Source: Deltaproteobacteria bacterium
GTDB lineage: Bacteria; Myxococcota_A; Polyangia; Haliangiales; SHYZ01
Reading direction: 5' to 3'
Assembly (NCBI GenBank): GCA_016210055.1
Contig: JACQUZ010000011.1
Location: forward strand, 1-64,000
Length of the DNA stretch: 64,000 nucleotides
The position numbers were made by a program, and so were the translations under genes. Below the pieces are notes generated by a model that saw only the letters and a program-made list of their open reading frames with translations, did no database searches and was not told the origin of the DNA. Below, in pieces: positions 24,481-32,037 of this stretch (the stretch's first letter is position 1; the number at the start of each line of letters is the position of its first letter).

Positions 24481-24523
24481 CACCTTGACCTCACTCGTCA
24501 GAAGGAACTATTTTAGCCATGCG

Positions 24524-24739
24524 ATGGCAACCGAGGTTCGAGCCCACATTACCGGTACTGTTTGGAAAATCGAGAAGAAGCCAGGGGATTCGGTCTCCGA
24601 GGGGGACACGGTGGTGATCCTTGAATCAATGAAAATGGAGATGCCCGTCGAGGCTCCTGGCTCGGGAACGATCTCGTCGATCAAGTGCAAGGAAGGGCAG
24701 GCGGTCGACGAGGGAATGGTCCTGGCGACGATCGACTAG
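24524..24739 (+). CDS. Stand-alone biotinyl/lipoyl carrier domain protein
   Basis: 71 residues from the ATG at 24524. It is essentially only a biotin-attachment domain: the ESMKMEMPVEAPGSG motif carries the biotinylatable Lys, and hairpin strands flank it (ITGTVWKIEKKPGDSVSEGDTVVIL ... EGQAVDEGMVLATI). Such single-domain proteins act as biotin carboxyl carriers of acyl-CoA or pyruvate carboxylases. No carboxylase subunits or birA lie next to it, so its partner enzyme is unknown. It ends 8 bases from the convergent MCE operon. A start at 24485 would add 13 residues without domain support. Confidence 0.85.
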   Translation: MATEVRAHITGTVWKIEKKPGDSVSEGDTVVILESMKMEMPVEAPGSGTISSIKCKEGQAVDEGMVLATID

Positions 24740-24747
24740 CCCCAGCA

Positions 24748-25794
24748 TCATCGGGCTGATGTCCCATCGCGTGGGCCGAGCGTCACCCACGGGGTCTGCT
24801 TGAGCGCTCGCAAGATGTCTTTGACGTCGTCCACTAGAGATTCGTCCTGGAACAGGGCGGCGAGGGTCCCTTCTCCCTGGCGGAACATGTCCATCATGCG
24901 CTGGGCCCGCCGGAGGAGGTCGTCGGTCCTTGCGAGGAGGTCGGTGGCGCGGGTCGCGATAACGCGCAATTCGGCGAGTCTCTTTTCCGCCTCGACCTCT
25001 GCCAGCTTTTCGAGGCGAGGCAAGATGACGTCCAGCTTGGACCGAATCGATGCGACCTGTCCTTGGGCGCGTGTCAGAAGCTCGCCCAAGCGATCGGCGA
25101 CTCTCCGTAGCCGTGCTGTGGTGAGCCCTTGCCTGTCCAGGTCAGCCAACAGGGCGGCCAGCTGGTCGACAAGGTGCGATCCTCGCTGGAGCGTGCGCGT
25201 GAGAATCCCCGGTTGGGGTTCGATTTGGACGGTCAGACGGGATAGCTCTTCGACCGCCACGGCGAGGTCGCGGATTTCTGGAATGCCGTCCCGTAGGAGC
25301 TCCGTCACGACCTTGAGGTTCTGGTAGGCATCCTGAAGGAGTTGATCCAGGCGCGGCGGATCGATACCCCGCACCGAAGCCCCATCGGCAAGGGGCGCGC
25401 CTGGCTCGGCTTCGGGCGGGAGCACGGCCTCGAGAGAGGGCTCACTGAAGGGGGATACCTGATGCACGAAGAACTGCGTGTTGTCGCGCAGCATGTGAGC
25501 GCTCGTCCGATCGATCCAGAGGTCGAGGACGACTCGCCACGCGGGGTCCCCTGACGCCACCCTCGCGCTCTCTCGCGTCGGGAGGAACCCAATCCGTCGC
25601 ACGTGCCCGATCTCACGACCCCATGCTCTGACCTTGTGCCCTTCCTTGAGCGGACCGACGCGCGCGAGCTCGACATGGATCCTCGCACCCCGGCGCAAGC
25701 GACGCCCTTCGGAGAGGAACACGAGCGCGACGAGGGGCAGGAGAAGGCACAATACCCATGCACCCACGCGGACGTTCAGCCGATCCTCATTCAC
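24748..25794 (-). CDS. MCE/MlaD-family lipid-transport protein, second copy
   Basis: 348 residues from the GTG at 25794, which overlaps the stop of the preceding gene (GTGA). One N-terminal membrane helix (VGAWVLCLLLPLVALVFL) is followed by a divergent MCE domain (IHVELARVGPLKEGHKVRAWGREIGHVRRIGF ... VVLDLWIDRTSAHMLRDNTQFFVHQV). A long helical C-terminus follows, with a leucine-rich coiled-coil-like segment (LTQRG-type amphipathic heptads, TDLLARTDDLLRRAQRMMDM). MCE proteins form hexameric periplasmic tunnels for phospholipid; this one would share a ring or stack with the neighbour. It is the last gene of the six-gene Mla-like set. The MCE domain is more diverged than that of the first copy. 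Confidence 0.85.
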   Translation of the reverse strand: MNEDRLNVRVGAWVLCLLLPLVALVFLSEGRRLRRGARIHVELARVGPLKEGHKVRAWGREIGHVRRIGFLPTRESARVASGDPAWRVVLDLWIDRTSAHMLRDNTQFFVHQVSPFSEPSLEAVLPPEAEPGAPLADGASVRGIDPPRLDQLLQDAYQNLKVVTELLRDGIPEIRDLAVAVEELSRLTVQIEPQPGILTRTLQRGSHLVDQLAALLADLDRQGLTTARLRRVADRLGELLTRAQGQVASIRSKLDVILPRLEKLAEVEAEKRLAELRVIATRATDLLARTDDLLRRAQRMMDMFRQGEGTLAALFQDESLVDDVKDILRALKQTPWVTLGPRDGTSAR

Positions 25795-26807
25795 TGCCGC
25801 CACAGGAACTTCCAGGGGTTGCGCTTGAGATCCCGGACGAGCTCCTTGAGATCGGCGTAGAGCTCTTCTCTGGCGAGAAGCTGGCCTGCGGTTCCCTTGC
25901 CTGCTCGCAAGTCGGCCAGGAGCCCGATGGCGGCGTCGACGAGGGTTCCACCCTTGTCCATGAAGGCACTGGCGGAATCGGCAGCGCCCAAGGCACGCTC
26001 GACCCGCTCGGCTGTCACGAGGCCCAGGACTCGCGTCCCCTCGTCGGCGACCTGCGAGGCCTTGGGGCCCAGGTCAGTGAGGACGCGGTCGGCGCTCGCC
26101 AATGCCCGATCCAAATCCGTCAAGGTTCGCCCAACGATGGTCGGATCGCCAACTCCCTCGTGGAGATCCGCAATGGCGCGACTTCCTTCGTCGGCCAGGC
26201 GCTCTGCAGCGACAATCAACTTGCCAATGGCTTGGCGGTTCTCGCCGAGGAGAATGTTGAGCTCGCGCACGGCGCTGGCGCTGTTCGCAATGAGATCGCG
26301 TATGAGGCCCTTGTCCTTCGTCAGGAGGTCGGTAACCGAGTCCAGGAATTCGTACAGCCGGGCGACAATGAGGTCGGTCCTGGGCGGGTCGATCCCGACG
26401 TGGATCGACCCCGCTGGAATGGCGGGCTTGTCGTGCGAGCCGGGCACGATTTCCAGGTATTGCTCCCCCAGCACGCCGGCGGTGTTCACGAAGAACTGGG
26501 CGTCCTGTCGGATCGTGTCTCTAACCCGCTCCTCGAGCCACAGCTCCAGGCGGACTTGGACGCGCCGGCCGGTCTTCTCGTCCACGCGTCCTCCCAGGAA
26601 ATGCACCTGGTCTACCTTGCCCACCTTGATTCCAGATACCTTCACCGGGGCGCCCGGTTGGATGTTGCCGCTGAAGTTGAAATCCACAAAGAGCGGATAG
26701 CCCTTCCCAAGAGAGAACCCACCGAGCAGCAGCACGAACGCTGTGAGGACCGCCACCGAGAACGCGATCAGCGCGCCAACCCGGAACTCCAAGCTACGGT
26801 TGCTCAT
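25791..26807 (-). CDS. MCE/MlaD-family lipid-transport protein, first copy
   Basis: 338 residues from the ATG at 26807 behind GAGG; a TTG at 26819 overlaps the upstream stop. N-terminal helix (FRVGALIAFSVAVLTAFVLLLGGF), then a clear MCE domain: YPLFVDFNFSGNIQPGAPVKVSGIKVGKVDQVHF ... RVQVRLELWL ... RQDAQFFVNTAGVLGEQYLEIVPG. The GVLGEQYLEI ending is a typical MlaD feature. The remaining ~200 residues are helical and rich in Ala, Asp and Leu, with no known domain. It is predicted to be a periplasmic, single-pass substrate-binding ring component working with the adjacent MlaE/MlaF homologues. Confidence 0.9.
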   Translation of the reverse strand: MSNRSLEFRVGALIAFSVAVLTAFVLLLGGFSLGKGYPLFVDFNFSGNIQPGAPVKVSGIKVGKVDQVHFLGGRVDEKTGRRVQVRLELWLEERVRDTIRQDAQFFVNTAGVLGEQYLEIVPGSHDKPAIPAGSIHVGIDPPRTDLIVARLYEFLDSVTDLLTKDKGLIRDLIANSASAVRELNILLGENRQAIGKLIVAAERLADEGSRAIADLHEGVGDPTIVGRTLTDLDRALASADRVLTDLGPKASQVADEGTRVLGLVTAERVERALGAADSASAFMDKGGTLVDAAIGLLADLRAGKGTAGQLLAREELYADLKELVRDLKRNPWKFLWRQ

Positions 26808-26815
26808 GACTTGCC

Positions 26816-27568
26816 TCAAAACCCTGGCGTTTCCATTGGGCCCAAGGAGCGTCCCGAAATGAACTGCTGGATTACCGGGTCGTTGCTTTCCTGGAACTCC
26901 CTCGGCGTGCCTAAGCGGTTTACCACGCCGCGGTAGAGGAATGCGATTCGATCGGCAATGGAGAATATCGAAACCAGGTCGTGGGACACGACAATGGACG
27001 TCACGCCGAGGGTATCCGAGAGCTCGCGGATCAATCGATCGATGCGCCGCGCAGAAACAGGATCAAGCCCTGTCGTTGGCTCGTCAAACAGGACCGCCTC
27101 GGGGTCGAGGGTGAGGGTGCGGGCAATGGCCGCACGCTTGCGCATTCCGTCCCCGAGCTCATTCGGGTATCGGCTCGCGAACTCCGTCATGTGCACCTGC
27201 TCGATGCGTCGCATGGCTTCGGTCTTGGCGTCTCCAGGCGAGAGTCGCTTGTGCTTGCGCAGGGGGAGCATGACATTCTCCAGGATGGTCATCGAGTCGA
27301 AGAGCGTGCTGTTCTGAAACACCATTCCACAGCGCTTTCGGATGGGGTAGAGCGCTCGTTCCTCGAGGTGATCGACACGAACTCCGTCGAGCAGGATTTC
27401 CCCAGCGTCGGGGCGAATCAGCCCGATCAGGTGCTTGATCGTGACCGATTTCCCGACCCCAGACGTGCCGATGATGAACATGACCTCACCTTTTTCGACG
27501 GAGAGGTCGAGACCCCGGAGCACGGGCTTGCCCCCGAACGATTTCTTGATGCCGCGGAACTCGATCAC
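26816..27568 (-). CDS. MlaF-type ABC ATPase, second copy (altered signature motif)
   Basis: 250 residues from the GTG at 27568, which overlaps the permease stop (GTGA). A much longer open frame upstream lies inside the permease and is rejected. Walker A is IIGTSGVGKSVT, the Q-loop is MVFQNSTLFDSMT, Walker B is AVLFDEPTTGLDP and the H-loop is VVSHD: all intact. The ABC signature, normally LSGGM in MlaF proteins, reads LGDGM (residues 138-142, NELGDGMRKRAAIAR). It has lost the conserved Ser, and an Asp replaces a Gly. In an ABC dimer this signature faces the partner's Walker A, so the site using MlaF copy one's Walker A is predicted to be weak. Confidence 0.9.
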   Translation of the reverse strand: MIEFRGIKKSFGGKPVLRGLDLSVEKGEVMFIIGTSGVGKSVTIKHLIGLIRPDAGEILLDGVRVDHLEERALYPIRKRCGMVFQNSTLFDSMTILENVMLPLRKHKRLSPGDAKTEAMRRIEQVHMTEFASRYPNELGDGMRKRAAIARTLTLDPEAVLFDEPTTGLDPVSARRIDRLIRELSDTLGVTSIVVSHDLVSIFSIADRIAFLYRGVVNRLGTPREFQESNDPVIQQFISGRSLGPMETPGF

Positions 27569-28368
27569 GCGCCGGTCTCCGCTTGGAGAAAAAAGTATCC
27601 AAAGGCGGAGAGGAGGAAATCGAGAAGGATCACGGCGAACGATGACCCGATCACCGCGCGGGTCGTTGCCGAGCCAACTCCCTCGGAGCCGCCGCGGGCG
27701 GCGAGCCCGCAGGTGCCAGCGACCAGCGGAACGGCCGCACCGTAGGCCAGCGACTTGATGAGTCCCACCAAGAGGTCGCCGGACATCACCCGTTGTGCGT
27801 TGAGAAACACCCGGGGATTCACCTGGAACGAGGTCCACGCCGTCAAAGCTCCCAGGCCGAGCGCGACTACGCTGCCGAGAATCGCGAGGACCGCGGTCAT
27901 CAAGCAGCAGGCGAGAAACCGCGGGACGATCAGGTGCTCGACAGGGTCTACGCCAGACATGCGCAGGGCATCCACCTGCTCGGTGACCACCATCGAGCCG
28001 ACCTCGGCCGCAATCCCTGCGCCCACCCGCGTGGCGAGCATCATGGCGGTGAGGGTGGGGCCGAATTCATGGACCAAGATCTTGATGAACTCGGCGCCGA
28101 CGAAGCTCAAGTCTCCCGTGACGCGCCCCGCTTGGAGGCATGTCTGGAACACCAGGACCATCCCCAGGAAGCCGAGCGTGACCATCACGAAGAGGACCGA
28201 CCGGTTCCCGATCTCGAACATCTGGGTGACTAGGTCGGCGCTCTTCCAGCGACCGCGCAAGACAAGGACCTCGGTGCGAACGAACACCGAGAACAGCATC
28301 CTTACGAACGAAGCCGCTGAGAGCGTGAGGGCTCCAAGCCCTTGAATGGATGTTCTGAGGGCTCTCAT
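27565..28368 (-). CDS. MlaE-type permease, second copy
   Basis: 267 residues from the ATG at 28368, which overlaps the stop of the first permease (ATGA). Polytopic membrane protein (five or six helices) of the MlaE/DUF140 family. The characteristic cytoplasmic-side segment FGPTLTAMMLATRVGAGIAAEVGSMVVTEQVDALRMSGVDPVEHLIVPR is present. The Glu-Gln-x-Asp-Ala-Leu core and the later GGSEGVGSATTRAVIGSS region match MlaE. It is less like canonical MlaE than copy one in the middle (ATRVGAGIAAEVGS instead of a GRVGAN form). It would pair with its neighbour rather than itself, if the transporter is heterodimeric. Confidence 0.9.
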   Translation of the reverse strand: MRALRTSIQGLGALTLSAASFVRMLFSVFVRTEVLVLRGRWKSADLVTQMFEIGNRSVLFVMVTLGFLGMVLVFQTCLQAGRVTGDLSFVGAEFIKILVHEFGPTLTAMMLATRVGAGIAAEVGSMVVTEQVDALRMSGVDPVEHLIVPRFLACCLMTAVLAILGSVVALGLGALTAWTSFQVNPRVFLNAQRVMSGDLLVGLIKSLAYGAAVPLVAGTCGLAARGGSEGVGSATTRAVIGSSFAVILLDFLLSAFGYFFLQAETGA

Positions 28369-29138
28369 TTGAGGAGAAATGTAAGGAAGAAATCGAGGAG
28401 CATGATCAATATTGCGGCAGAAACTACCGCCGCGTTGACTGCTCGCCCGACGCCAACGGCACCCCCGCGCACGGAGATGCCGAAATGACAGCTCGTCAGC
28501 GCCACCGCCAAGCCGAAGGCGGCCGATTTGATGAGGCCGTGGGTGAGATCCCCGATCGAGAGGTTGTCGGAAAAGGAATGAAAGAAGGTCGCCAGCTCGA
28601 CATGGAGGAGCAGCTTGGCGAAGATGGCCCCTCCGGCGATGGCGACGAGGTCCCCGATCACGGTCAGGCAGAACAGCATGACCACCATCGCCACGACCCG
28701 CGGCGTGAGGAGGTACTGGATGGGGTCAATGGCGAGGGCACGGAGTCCATCGACCTGCTCGGTCACGGTCATGGTTCCGAGCTCGGCAGTGTTGTTGGCA
28801 CCCACGCGGCCCGAAAACATGAGGGCGATGAGCATGGGGCCCACCTCCCGAAATACCGCGTAGCCGGTCGCCCAGCCGACGAGCCCAGTGGCGTTAAAGC
28901 GGTGCACGAAGATCGCCGATTGGATGACCATGATGCCGCCCGTGAAGAACGCGGTCAGGGCGACGATGGGAACCGAGCGGTTGCCCATTCGGTGGAGGTT
29001 TCGCCATAGCTCCGTTCCGTCAAGGGACGGCGGCACCAGCGACCTCACCACGCGCGCAAGAAGCACGGCCATGCCCCCGGTCTCGCGGGCGAGAAAAACG
29101 GCGCGACCGCCAAGGTGGACCAGCGCGCGGGTGATCAC
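28365..29138 (-). CDS. MlaE-type permease, first copy
   Basis: 257 residues from the GTG at 29138, overlapping the upstream ATPase stop (GTGA). MlaE-family permease: VFREVGPMLIALMFSGRVGANNTAELGTMTVTEQVDGLRALAIDPIQYLLTPRVVAM is the family signature, and GGAVGVGRAVNAAVVSAAILIML the C-terminal one. An N-terminal amphipathic segment precedes five predicted membrane helices. In characterised Mla/MCE systems two MlaE chains form the inner-membrane channel that feeds the MCE ring. Having two distinct MlaE genes side by side, each overlapping its neighbours by 4 nt, suggests one copy of each per transporter. Confidence 0.92.
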   Translation of the reverse strand: MITRALVHLGGRAVFLARETGGMAVLLARVVRSLVPPSLDGTELWRNLHRMGNRSVPIVALTAFFTGGIMVIQSAIFVHRFNATGLVGWATGYAVFREVGPMLIALMFSGRVGANNTAELGTMTVTEQVDGLRALAIDPIQYLLTPRVVAMVVMLFCLTVIGDLVAIAGGAIFAKLLLHVELATFFHSFSDNLSIGDLTHGLIKSAAFGLAVALTSCHFGISVRGGAVGVGRAVNAAVVSAAILIMLLDFFLTFLLK

Positions 29139-29872
29139 AGGGGCCCTTCCAGCTCGCCGCGCACGAACTGACGGACCGCGGGGTCGTCGGCGTCCCCCAC
29201 GGTGTCAGAAGGCCCATCATAGAGGACGCGCCCTCGGTACAGCATGGCCAACCGGTCCACGAACGCGCGCAGGCCGGCGACATCCGAGGAGACAGCGACG
29301 ACCGTCGCTCCGGTCGCTTCTTGCTCCGCGCGCAAGAGATCGTAGATCTTCGACGACGTCACGGGGTCGAGGCCGGCCGTCGGCTCGTCGTAAATGACGA
29401 GGTCGGGGCGCGCGATGGTCGCCCTGGCAATCCCGACCCGTTTCTTCATGCCACCCGATAGCTCCGAGGGGGCCTTGTCTTCGGATCCAGCAAGGCCCAC
29501 GGCACGAAGCCGCTCGTGAACCCGGCGATCGATTTCCTCTTCGGCGATACCTCCGCGCTGCCGGAGCGGGAAGGCCACGTTCTCTGCCACCGTCATGAAA
29601 TCGAAGAGCGCGTAGTTCTGAAAGAGCATCCCAATCTTCTTGCGGAAAGGGCCTAGGGCCTCCTCGCCGAGCTTGGTGATGTCCTGTCCGTCGACGCGTA
29701 TGACCCCTTCGTCCGGTCGGTAGAGGCCGCAGACGAGCTTCGTTAGCACGGTTTTTCCGCTCGCACCGGGCCCAACAAGGCCCCAACGCGTGCCCCTGGG
29801 GATGGAGAGCGTGATGCAATCGAGCAGTGGCGAATCGCCAAACCCCTTTTTCACGCCCTCCATGCGGATCAT
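29135..29872 (-). CDS. MlaF-type ABC ATPase, first copy (missing H-loop His)
   Basis: 245 residues from the ATG at 29872. Walker A LVGPGASGKTVLTK, Q-loop MLFQNYALFDFMT, signature LSGGMKKRVGIAR and Walker B LVIYDEPTAGLDP are intact. The H-loop histidine, expected in a VVSHD-like sequence, is replaced by Ser196 (VAVSSDVAGL). The H-loop His senses the ATP gamma-phosphate in active ABC ATPases, so hydrolysis at this chain's own Walker A/B site is predicted to be impaired. The signature it donates to the partner site is normal. This is the first gene of the F-E-E-F-D-D set, 48 bases downstream of the TPR lipoprotein gene. Confidence 0.9.
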   Translation of the reverse strand: MIRMEGVKKGFGDSPLLDCITLSIPRGTRWGLVGPGASGKTVLTKLVCGLYRPDEGVIRVDGQDITKLGEEALGPFRKKIGMLFQNYALFDFMTVAENVAFPLRQRGGIAEEEIDRRVHERLRAVGLAGSEDKAPSELSGGMKKRVGIARATIARPDLVIYDEPTAGLDPVTSSKIYDLLRAEQEATGATVVAVSSDVAGLRAFVDRLAMLYRGRVLYDGPSDTVGDADDPAVRQFVRGELEGPL

Positions 29873-29920: not shown

Positions 29921-31012
29921 CTACATGCAATGGAGGCGCGTGGTCGCCTGAGGGATCTGTTCTTGGTGAAACTTGGACTCTGGAAAGCGGCTCTTGAGCA
30001 CGCCGAGGGCCTTGCACGCGTGCTCCCAGTCCCCAAGGAGCTCATGGGTTCGCGCGATTTCAAAAAGAGCCTCGTCGACCAGGGCGGAATCCGGAAAGCG
30101 GTCCTCCAAGTTGGCGAACTCCTTGAGGGCGGAGCGCGGGTCGCCCAGTCGGTCACGGACCAACCGACCGAGCGCAAGCTGGGCATCATCCAGCCAACTG
30201 GAGTGGTACGACCCGACCAGAAACGATTTTTCCCGCGTGTCGAGGAGGTTTCGGTAACGCTCCGCCGCACCTTTGTAATCCTTGATGGCCTCCGAGAGCT
30301 GGGCGCCGTGATACAGGGCGTCGTCTCGAAAAGGGCTGGAGGCGTGGTGCTTCACCAGGAGGTCATAGGCACGCATGGCTTCGGCGGGGTTAGCCATTTC
30401 CTCTCTCGCAAGGGATGCCATCGCATTAAGGAGGTTGTCGGCTATTTCGGTGCCCGAGAACCACTGGTAGAGCTGATCGAGCTGGGTGAAGAGGGCCTGG
30501 GCATCACGCTTTCGTCCATCCCGCATGAGGATGCGCAGTGCTTCGTCGGCGTAGGGATCATTCGGATAGGAGGTGATGGTTTTCCAAAACCGCTCGTACG
30601 CTTGCTTGTCGTGACCGGCCGACGATAGGTGCAGGCGGCCGGCGGAGACGAGCGCTATGGCCCCAGGGTGTGCCGTCGACCCATCTGTAGGCACGAATGA
30701 CGACGGGGCAGAGCCGGCAAGGGTCTCGTAGGCCACGATGGCCTCGGCGGTGCGACCGAGCCTTTCGAGGGAGGATGCTCGGCCTAGTTGAGCTGCGGCA
30801 CACCATTTCTGGCGGCTCTCCGGGTTGCTCTGATTTTGGCAAGAGTAGGTCGCCGCCTCGTAGGCCTGGAGCGCTTCGAGAGTGCGTCCCTGGGAGTCCA
30901 AGGACTCTGCCCGAACCAGCTCCACGGGTGCCTTCGACGTGGCACACGCGAGCCAAAGCAGGGCGGCAAGGCAGGCGACGCCCCACGTCATGTGCTCGCG
31001 TCGGGGGGTCAC
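29921..31012 (-). CDS. TPR-repeat lipoprotein
   Basis: 363 residues from the GTG at 31012, which overlaps the threonine aldolase stop (GTGA); an internal ATG at 30991 is also possible. The N-terminus [23 protein letters not shown] is a signal peptide with a near-lipobox (WLAC; Trp at the -3 position is atypical). The rest is built of TPR-like helical pairs: [110 protein letters not shown]. The repeat style recalls BamD/YbgF-like periplasmic TPR proteins. Its position directly before the doubled MCE transporter suggests a periplasmic partner, which is inference. Confidence 0.8.
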
Positions 31013-32037
31013 ATGGCCACCGTGCGATTGAGAACCTCTGCTGCTTGCTCGCATCCCGCGCGGCTCACATCCATGTGGGTGACCAACCGAATCCTGCGAG
31101 GGCCCACTGCGTTGAACAAGACCCCCTCGTCCCGAGCGCGCACCACGAGCTCGCCTGCCGTGGGACCATGTTCGTCGATATCCACGAGCACCATGTTCGT
31201 TTGAACGCTCGACCGGTCAACTCGGAGCCGTGCGGATTCGGCTAGGAGCTCCGCGAGTCGCCGCGCGTTGGCGTGATCTTCAACCAGCCGTTCCCTGTGG
31301 TTCTCCAAGGCGAACAGCCCGGCGGCGGCAAGGACCCCCGCCTGTCGCATGCCGCCACCAAGCATCTTGCGAAACCGGTGGGCACGGTGGATGAGCTCCC
31401 GTGAGCCGCAAAGAACGGAGCCCACCGGGGCGCCGAGACCCTTGCTAAGGCATGTCGAAACCGTATCGAAGCCTGCTGCAAGCTGGCGCTCGCTTGCTCC
31501 GGTGGCCACACTCGCGTTCCAAATTCGTGCCCCGTCGAGGTGCGTGCGTAGCCCGAGGGCTCGAGACGCCTGAAGAATTCCTTTGACCTCCACGTCGGAC
31601 CAAATTCGACCGCCTGCGCGGTTGTGCGTGTTTTCGACGCACACCAGGCGGGTGGGTGAGAAGTGATGGTTGTCGGGCTTCGCTGCCTGTTGCACGTCGG
31701 CGGCGGAGAACATCCCCCCCTTCCCAACGATGGTGAACTGCACCCCTGCAATGGCAGCGCCCGCACCCGATTCGTACAGCCAGTTGTGGGAGTCCTCACC
31801 GTCCAGCACGTCGTCGCCGGGCTCTGCGTGCACCTTGAGAGCTACCTGATTGGCCATGGTTCCAGACGGCATGAAGAGGGCCGCTTCAACTCCGAGCAAG
31901 TCGGCGACGCGCTCCTCTAGGCGGTTCACGGTCGGATCCTCGCCATACACGTCATCCCCGACTTCGGCGCCCGCCATGGCCTTGCGCATGCCAGCGCTAG
32001 GCAGGGTCACCGTGTCGGAGCGCAGATCCACCCGCAT
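31009..32037 (-). CDS. ltaE: Low-specificity L-threonine aldolase
   Basis: 342 residues. PLP enzyme cleaving L-threonine/allo-threonine to glycine and acetaldehyde. Family motifs are [56 protein letters not shown], the substrate/PLP region [10 protein letters not shown] and the PLP-binding Lys in [16 protein letters not shown]. The start MRVDLRS at 32037 is the conserved N-terminus. The stop overlaps the start of the TPR lipoprotein, so an amino-acid enzyme is translationally linked to an envelope operon, which is a surprising pairing. Upstream lies a large inverted-repeat element (32083-32250), which separates it from the next minus-strand gene. Confidence 0.93.

Follow-up and report, generated by a model that had tools for sequence, protein, structure and literature searches.

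The closest solved structures to the transporter described here include MlaFEDB of E. coli, P. aeruginosa and A. baumannii, and MceG, the ATPase of the mycobacterial Mce1 system. MlaFEDB consists of MlaF ATPases, MlaE permeases and MCE domain proteins, with MlaB as a partner encoded in the operon and MlaC and MlaA as further partners. MlaF and MlaE are homodimers, and there are two complete ATP sites (PMC7784689). In E. coli MlaF, the K47A (Walker A Lys) and E170Q (catalytic Glu) proteins fail to complement (PMC7367683), and Ser146 of the signature coordinates ATP (PMC7784689). Mce1 has a heteromeric permease pair, YrbE1A/YrbE1B, and long-armed MCE proteins, and uses a single MceG, encoded elsewhere, as a homodimer (PMC9882608). 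In this study, we analysed a stretch of 64,000 nucleotides (the window; positions 1 to 64,000 of contig JACQUZ010000011.1), which is a contig of the 5.4-Mb draft genome of a Deltaproteobacteria bacterium (GCA_016210055.1) of the Myxococcota. It contains a cluster of six genes encoding an MCE/Mla transporter that, like MlaFEDB, has MlaF-like ATPases, MlaE permeases and MCE domain proteins, but is not a member of canonical MlaFEDB. Instead of homodimers, there are two diverged paralogues each of the ATPase and the permease, which fall in separate clades. The motifs of the two ATPases make it very probable that the cluster encodes an obligate heteromeric MCE-type lipid ATP-binding cassette (ABC) transporter in which one ATP site works and the other is degenerate. 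Searches of the open-licence literature found no description of a heterodimeric or half-degenerate MCE/Mla ATPase.

Read from the open reading frames (ORFs) of the window, the six genes lie on the minus strand in the order F1-E1-E2-F2-D1-D2, where F1 and F2 are the ATPases, E1 and E2 the permeases, and D1 and D2 the MCE proteins. The genes, with the ATP-site motifs of F1 and F2, are as follows. Clade support is given by the Shimodaira-Hasegawa-like approximate likelihood ratio test (SH-aLRT).

F1, 29135..29872, minus strand: MlaF-like ATPase with a degenerate ATP-binding half and a normal signature; ABC_tran 115.8 bits (Pfam)
Walker A of F1, 29750..29773, minus strand: GPGASGKT, with Ala for Gly at the fourth position and the Lys kept
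Signature of F1, 29447..29461, minus strand: intact LSGGM, residues 138-142
Ser196 codon of F1, 29285..29287, minus strand: replaces the H-loop His; Ser in 122/149 F1 orthologues
E1, 28365..29138, minus strand: MlaE-type permease, first paralogue; MlaE 237 bits (Pfam); E1 clade SH-aLRT 99
E2, 27565..28368, minus strand: MlaE-type permease, second paralogue; MlaE 184 bits (Pfam); E2 clade SH-aLRT 99
F2, 26816..27568, minus strand: MlaF-like ATPase with a normal ATP-binding half and a degenerate signature; ABC_tran 101.8 bits (Pfam)
Signature of F2, 27143..27157, minus strand: degenerate LGDGM, residues 138-142
H-loop of F2, 26978..26986, minus strand: intact SHD with His196; His in 159/159 F2 orthologues
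D1, 25791..26819, minus strand: MCE protein with a transmembrane (TM) helix, an MCE domain and a long helical arm; MlaD 58.3 bits (Pfam)
D2, 24748..25803, minus strand: divergent second MCE protein with the same layout as D1; MlaD near the cut-off (Pfam)

An earlier, sequence-only reading of the window had pointed out Ser196 in place of the H-loop His of F1 beside a normal LSGGM signature, and LGDGM in F2 beside a normal H-loop; its numbering was correct to the residue. A further lesion, the Ala in Walker A of F1, was missed in that reading and belongs to the same composite site. This position is Ala in 77/114 F1 orthologues and Gly in 127/127 F2 orthologues. The catalytic Glu is present in F1 of the window and in F2, where it is Glu163, numbered from the GTG start. 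At the place of Ser146 of E. coli MlaF, the aligned residue of F2 is Gly. About 35 ABC domains of this genome (PF00005 loci) were examined, and in none but F2 is the first signature Gly replaced by Asp; other non-standard signatures or H-loops occur there in a few unrelated families. In ABC ATPases, each composite site pairs the ATP-binding half of one subunit with the signature of its partner (PMC7756269). Therefore, the lesions of F1 and F2 meet in the site made of the F1 ATP-binding half and the F2 signature, and the site made of the F2 ATP-binding half and the F1 signature is spared. Lesions of both nucleotide-binding domains (NBDs) in one composite site, with the other complete, are what characterizes asymmetric ABC transporters. 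In TAP, TM287/288, TmrAB, Pdr5 and ABCG5/G8, complementary lesions are likewise confined to one composite site, the usual make-up being an altered signature in one NBD combined with Glu to Asp or an altered H-loop in the second (PMC7756269). These transporters, however, have other folds than that of the cluster.

The pattern was followed in a survey of Myxococcota and of hits in Bacteroidota, mostly draft metagenome-assembled genomes, in which F1 and F2 were classed by whole-length profiles. Orthologues of E2, F1 and F2 were well separated by score from other MlaE and ATPase paralogues. Motifs were tallied in 308 distinct sequences from Myxococcota, 149 of F1 and 159 of F2. Walker A Lys and Q-loop Gln were kept in 149/149 F1, and the catalytic residue and H-loop residue were E/S in 112, D/H in 26, D/S in 10 and D/Q in 1, the intact E/H pair being found in 0. 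The signature core of F1 was SGG in 148/149 and AGG in 1/149. This sole changed signature, LAGGL, is in a D/H sequence (L301:7425-8759), and the change touches the otherwise complete site. Every F2 (159/159) kept Walker A Lys, Q-loop Gln, catalytic Glu and H-loop His; its signature core was GDG in 111, SDG in 30, GPG in 10 and GPS in 3, with five singletons, and SGG in 0. Across many families, lesions of F1 are thus limited to Walker A, the catalytic Glu and the H-loop, and those of F2 to the signature, L301 excepted. Canonical MlaF-like or related ATPases of Bacteroidota and Myxococcota, from the same and other genomes, had intact motifs in 44/44. The sequence-only reading had placed both lesions in one composite site with the opposite site intact, and the 308 orthologues support this with one minor exception; in the homologues, the motifs were neither intact nor scattered at random.

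The kind of F1 lesion differs among lineages. Members of the window's class mostly have His to Ser and retain the Glu; outside this class, Glu to Asp was found in every case examined and the His is mostly kept. The mostly intact F1 H-loop outside the window's class was considered as a counter-example and ruled out, because the catalytic Glu is Asp there. In family f12, most F1 carry both lesions (Glu to Asp and a His change), and a normal F2 signature is absent. When the F1 tree was built with the columns of all three traits masked, at least 4 changes were needed to explain Glu/Asp, and at least 3 each to explain His/other and Walker A Gly/Ala. This indicates that the lesions shifted repeatedly yet remained in one site.

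In the proposed transporter, F1 and F2 would pair head-to-tail as an ATPase heterodimer, and the core would be a heterotetramer F1-E1-E2-F2 bearing an MCE ring of D1, plus D2 in the window. Site 1 would be composed of Walker A, catalytic Glu and H-loop of F1 and the signature of F2. Since the Walker A Lys is kept, site 1 probably binds ATP; its hydrolysis would be poor or none. Site 2, composed of Walker A, Glu163 and His196 of F2 and LSGGM of F1, would be complete and perform the hydrolysis. By analogy with known asymmetric ABC transporters, site 1 may be a standing ATP clamp that holds the dimer, and site 2 may drive the cycle, so that the two halves of the pump would be unequal, as in TAP, Pdr5 and ABCG5/G8. 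The substrate is assumed, from the family, to be a phospholipid or other membrane lipid. The genes, the motifs and the way these are conserved and co-occur are observed, and the complex, its ATP cycle, its lipid substrate and the direction of transport are inferred from them; we are highly confident of a heteromeric ATPase with one degenerate site, and less so of the wider trans-envelope picture described below.

F1 and F2 might form a heterodimer in which neighbouring residues make up for the motif changes. Both sites would then hydrolyse ATP, and the two halves would not differ in function. The change from Glu to Asp is conservative, the EQ mutant of MlaF keeps about 20% activity (PMC7784689), and F1 of the window has the Glu itself. 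However, drift has affected the F1 motifs and F2 signature of one site and the other site is nearly invariant, which is the hallmark of asymmetric ABC transporters (PMC7756269). We regard full compensation as very improbable.

Distribution and gene order bear indirectly on whether F1 and F2 dimerise with each other in one complex. In the class sample (n=290 genomes), 160 have both F1 and F2, 12 F1 only, 11 F2 only and 107 neither (Fisher p ~1e-51, not corrected for kinship); the cut-offs lay within the score gap, and at these the f12 forms, being divergent, fall under 'neither'. An E2 orthologue was found in 122/284 genomes of the phylum sample, and named carriers include Sorangium, Polyangium, Minicystis, Labilithrix and Sandaracinus. 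In the trees, F1 and F2 are separate clades (SH-aLRT 99 and 100), and E1 and E2 are each a single clade. F1-E1-E2-F2-D is the usual gene order, and the nearer relatives of the window have a second D. Other loci have F1-F2-D without a permease between (L052, L314, L315, L322), E1 beside F2 (L037, L038, L368, L369), E1-E2 away from F2-D, or F1-E1 away from E2-F2-D. In f12 genomes, F1-E1 and E2-F2-D1 are on different contigs and the complementary lesions are still present. Every pairing is thus found while the set stays whole, as expected of subunits of one complex. No fusion joining two different subunits was found among the ORFs of the loci compared. Within each clade, the residues that face each other in the site hardly vary, so that covariation over about 110 related F1/F2 pairs would be poorly informative. 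A 1.6-Mb genome (G005, L184), rated 98% complete, keeps the full F1-E1-E2-F2-D set with the same kind of lesions. Another MlaE-ATPase-MCE operon, highly divergent, is present in f12 genomes (L239, L240, L242, L244-L248); against the F1 and F2 profiles, its ATPase reaches only 40-60 bits.

The unlinked halves in f12, where an MCE gene stands beside the E2-F2 half only, could be taken to mean that E1-F1 and E2-F2-D are two separate homomeric MCE transporters, neighbours by chance, each with a modified but working ATPase. No MCE gene was found beside the unlinked F1-E1 in the f12 loci, which speaks against this reading. Moreover, a homodimer of either ATPase would be left with no complete site, since both sites would lack the signature in the case of F2, and the His and/or Glu in the case of F1, and the strict co-occurrence of F1 and F2 with lesions that are always complementary also argues against separate transporters. 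This explanation is very unlikely. The genome does carry other MlaE loci and a canonical MlaF with which F1 or F2 could work if its partner were a decaying or purely regulatory ATPase, but this is the least credible explanation, as no F1 or F2 across the phylum has lost the Walker A Lys or the Q-loop Gln, the small genome G005 retains the whole set, and decay would not spare precisely the other site.

Some observations weigh against an obligate heteromer with a single working site. F1 of the window retains the catalytic Glu, so residual hydrolysis at site 1 is possible. F1 or F2 was not found in 23/183 positive genomes, several of which are incomplete or have the gene cut by a contig end. Both ATPases also stop short of the C-terminal tail by which the E. 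coli MlaF subunits hold on to one another: in the alignment with MlaF (269 residues), the last residue of F1 corresponds to residue 252, and F2 extends five residues further.

The cluster has an MlaE-fold permease, an MCE protein of its own and an ATPase of the MlaF/MceG type, which place it among the MCE/Mla-type ABC transporters. The closest solved chains of F1 are MlaF, MceG and other ABC proteins; those of F2 are MceG, the nearest, and MlaF. Scores of both permeases lie above the Pfam cut-off of PF02405 (MlaE; 22.5 bits). For MlaD the cut-off is 25.1 bits, and D2 scored 24.0 bits in the Pfam search of the window, just below it, and 26.3 bits, above it, in the genome search. The sequence-only reading had described six overlapping genes, and its order and coordinates match ours. 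F1/E1, E1/E2 and E2/F2 overlap by 4 nucleotides (nt), the GTG start of F2 at 27568 overlapping the E2 stop, and D1/D2 overlap by 13 nt. F2 and D1 overlap, also by 4 nt, only if D1 starts at TTG; with the alternative ATG at 26807 they do not. A small biotin/lipoyl-carrier-like ORF (24485-24739, plus strand) is convergent with D2, and has homologues in L198 and L207.

Unlike those of MlaFEDB, the MCE proteins of the cluster carry long helical arms. In the AlphaFold2 (AF2) model of D1, computed as a single chain, the MCE domain is predicted with confidence and is accompanied by a membrane helix and by a long helical arm, for which confidence is low. Among solved structures, mycobacterial Mce1B matches this model best, over the full length (a flexible alignment with high root mean square deviation), and MlaD comes next, over the MCE domain. 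The AF2 model of D2, which is present in only some relatives, has a TM helix, a beta domain and a helical arm. Thus, the cluster shares the heteromeric permease pair and the long-armed MCE proteins with Mce1, but has two different ATPases in place of a single MceG. Actinobacterial Mce systems have two permeases and six MCE proteins, whereas the cluster and its relatives have two permeases and one or two MCE genes.

No STAS (MlaB) gene is in the cluster, the STAS_2 matches of the genome being on other contigs, and no match to MlaC or MlaA (PF05494, PF04333) was found in the genome, which is rated 98% complete. The lack of MlaC and MlaA fits a tunnel rather than a shuttle, and the long arms of D1 and D2 may guide lipid through the periplasm without an MlaC shuttle. 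A gene for a TPR protein lies 48 nt upstream of F1:

TPR protein, 29921..31054, minus strand: probable lipoprotein; TPR_6/YfiO (Pfam); lipobox-like signal LWLAC

TPR homologues stand beside F1 in about 20 of the 37 loci compared, in several families and including other classes, and the protein is a possible, even likely, further component of the transporter. A threonine-aldolase-like gene (31009-32037, minus strand) overlaps the TPR gene, and this synteny is kept in about 10 loci. In family f39, a gene for a secreted beta-barrel-like protein lies between E2 and F2 (L275:6992-7792, L272:5095-5775, L274:6660-7355, L276:6632-7291). One of these proteins has a weak Porin_4 match, and an outer-membrane partner is possible. 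These features together may suggest a phylum-wide, fully heteromeric, shuttle-free MCE machine, in which the unequal motors F1/F2, seated on the unequal permeases E1/E2, would drive lipid in a single direction, set by the degenerate site. The D1 (and D2) arms would make up the tunnel, and the TPR lipoprotein and, in some families, the beta-barrel protein would form its outer-membrane side. We put this forward as a speculation that is more probably wrong than right in its entirety.

In conclusion, a heteromeric permease alone is not new, YrbE1A/YrbE1B of mycobacteria being the nearest precedent, and the new feature is the heteromeric, half-degenerate ATPase. The direction of MCE transporters and their coupling to ATP are debated, and in the solved systems the two ATP sites are chemically identical and indistinguishable. 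With two distinct permeases, and with one ATP site working and the other degenerate, a natural MCE transporter of this kind would allow each half to be mutated or labelled separately. The asymmetric-ATPase design of other ABC folds would then have arisen in the MCE fold as well. This study defines a lipid-transport system of the Myxococcota that has been masked by the annotation names MlaF and MlaE.

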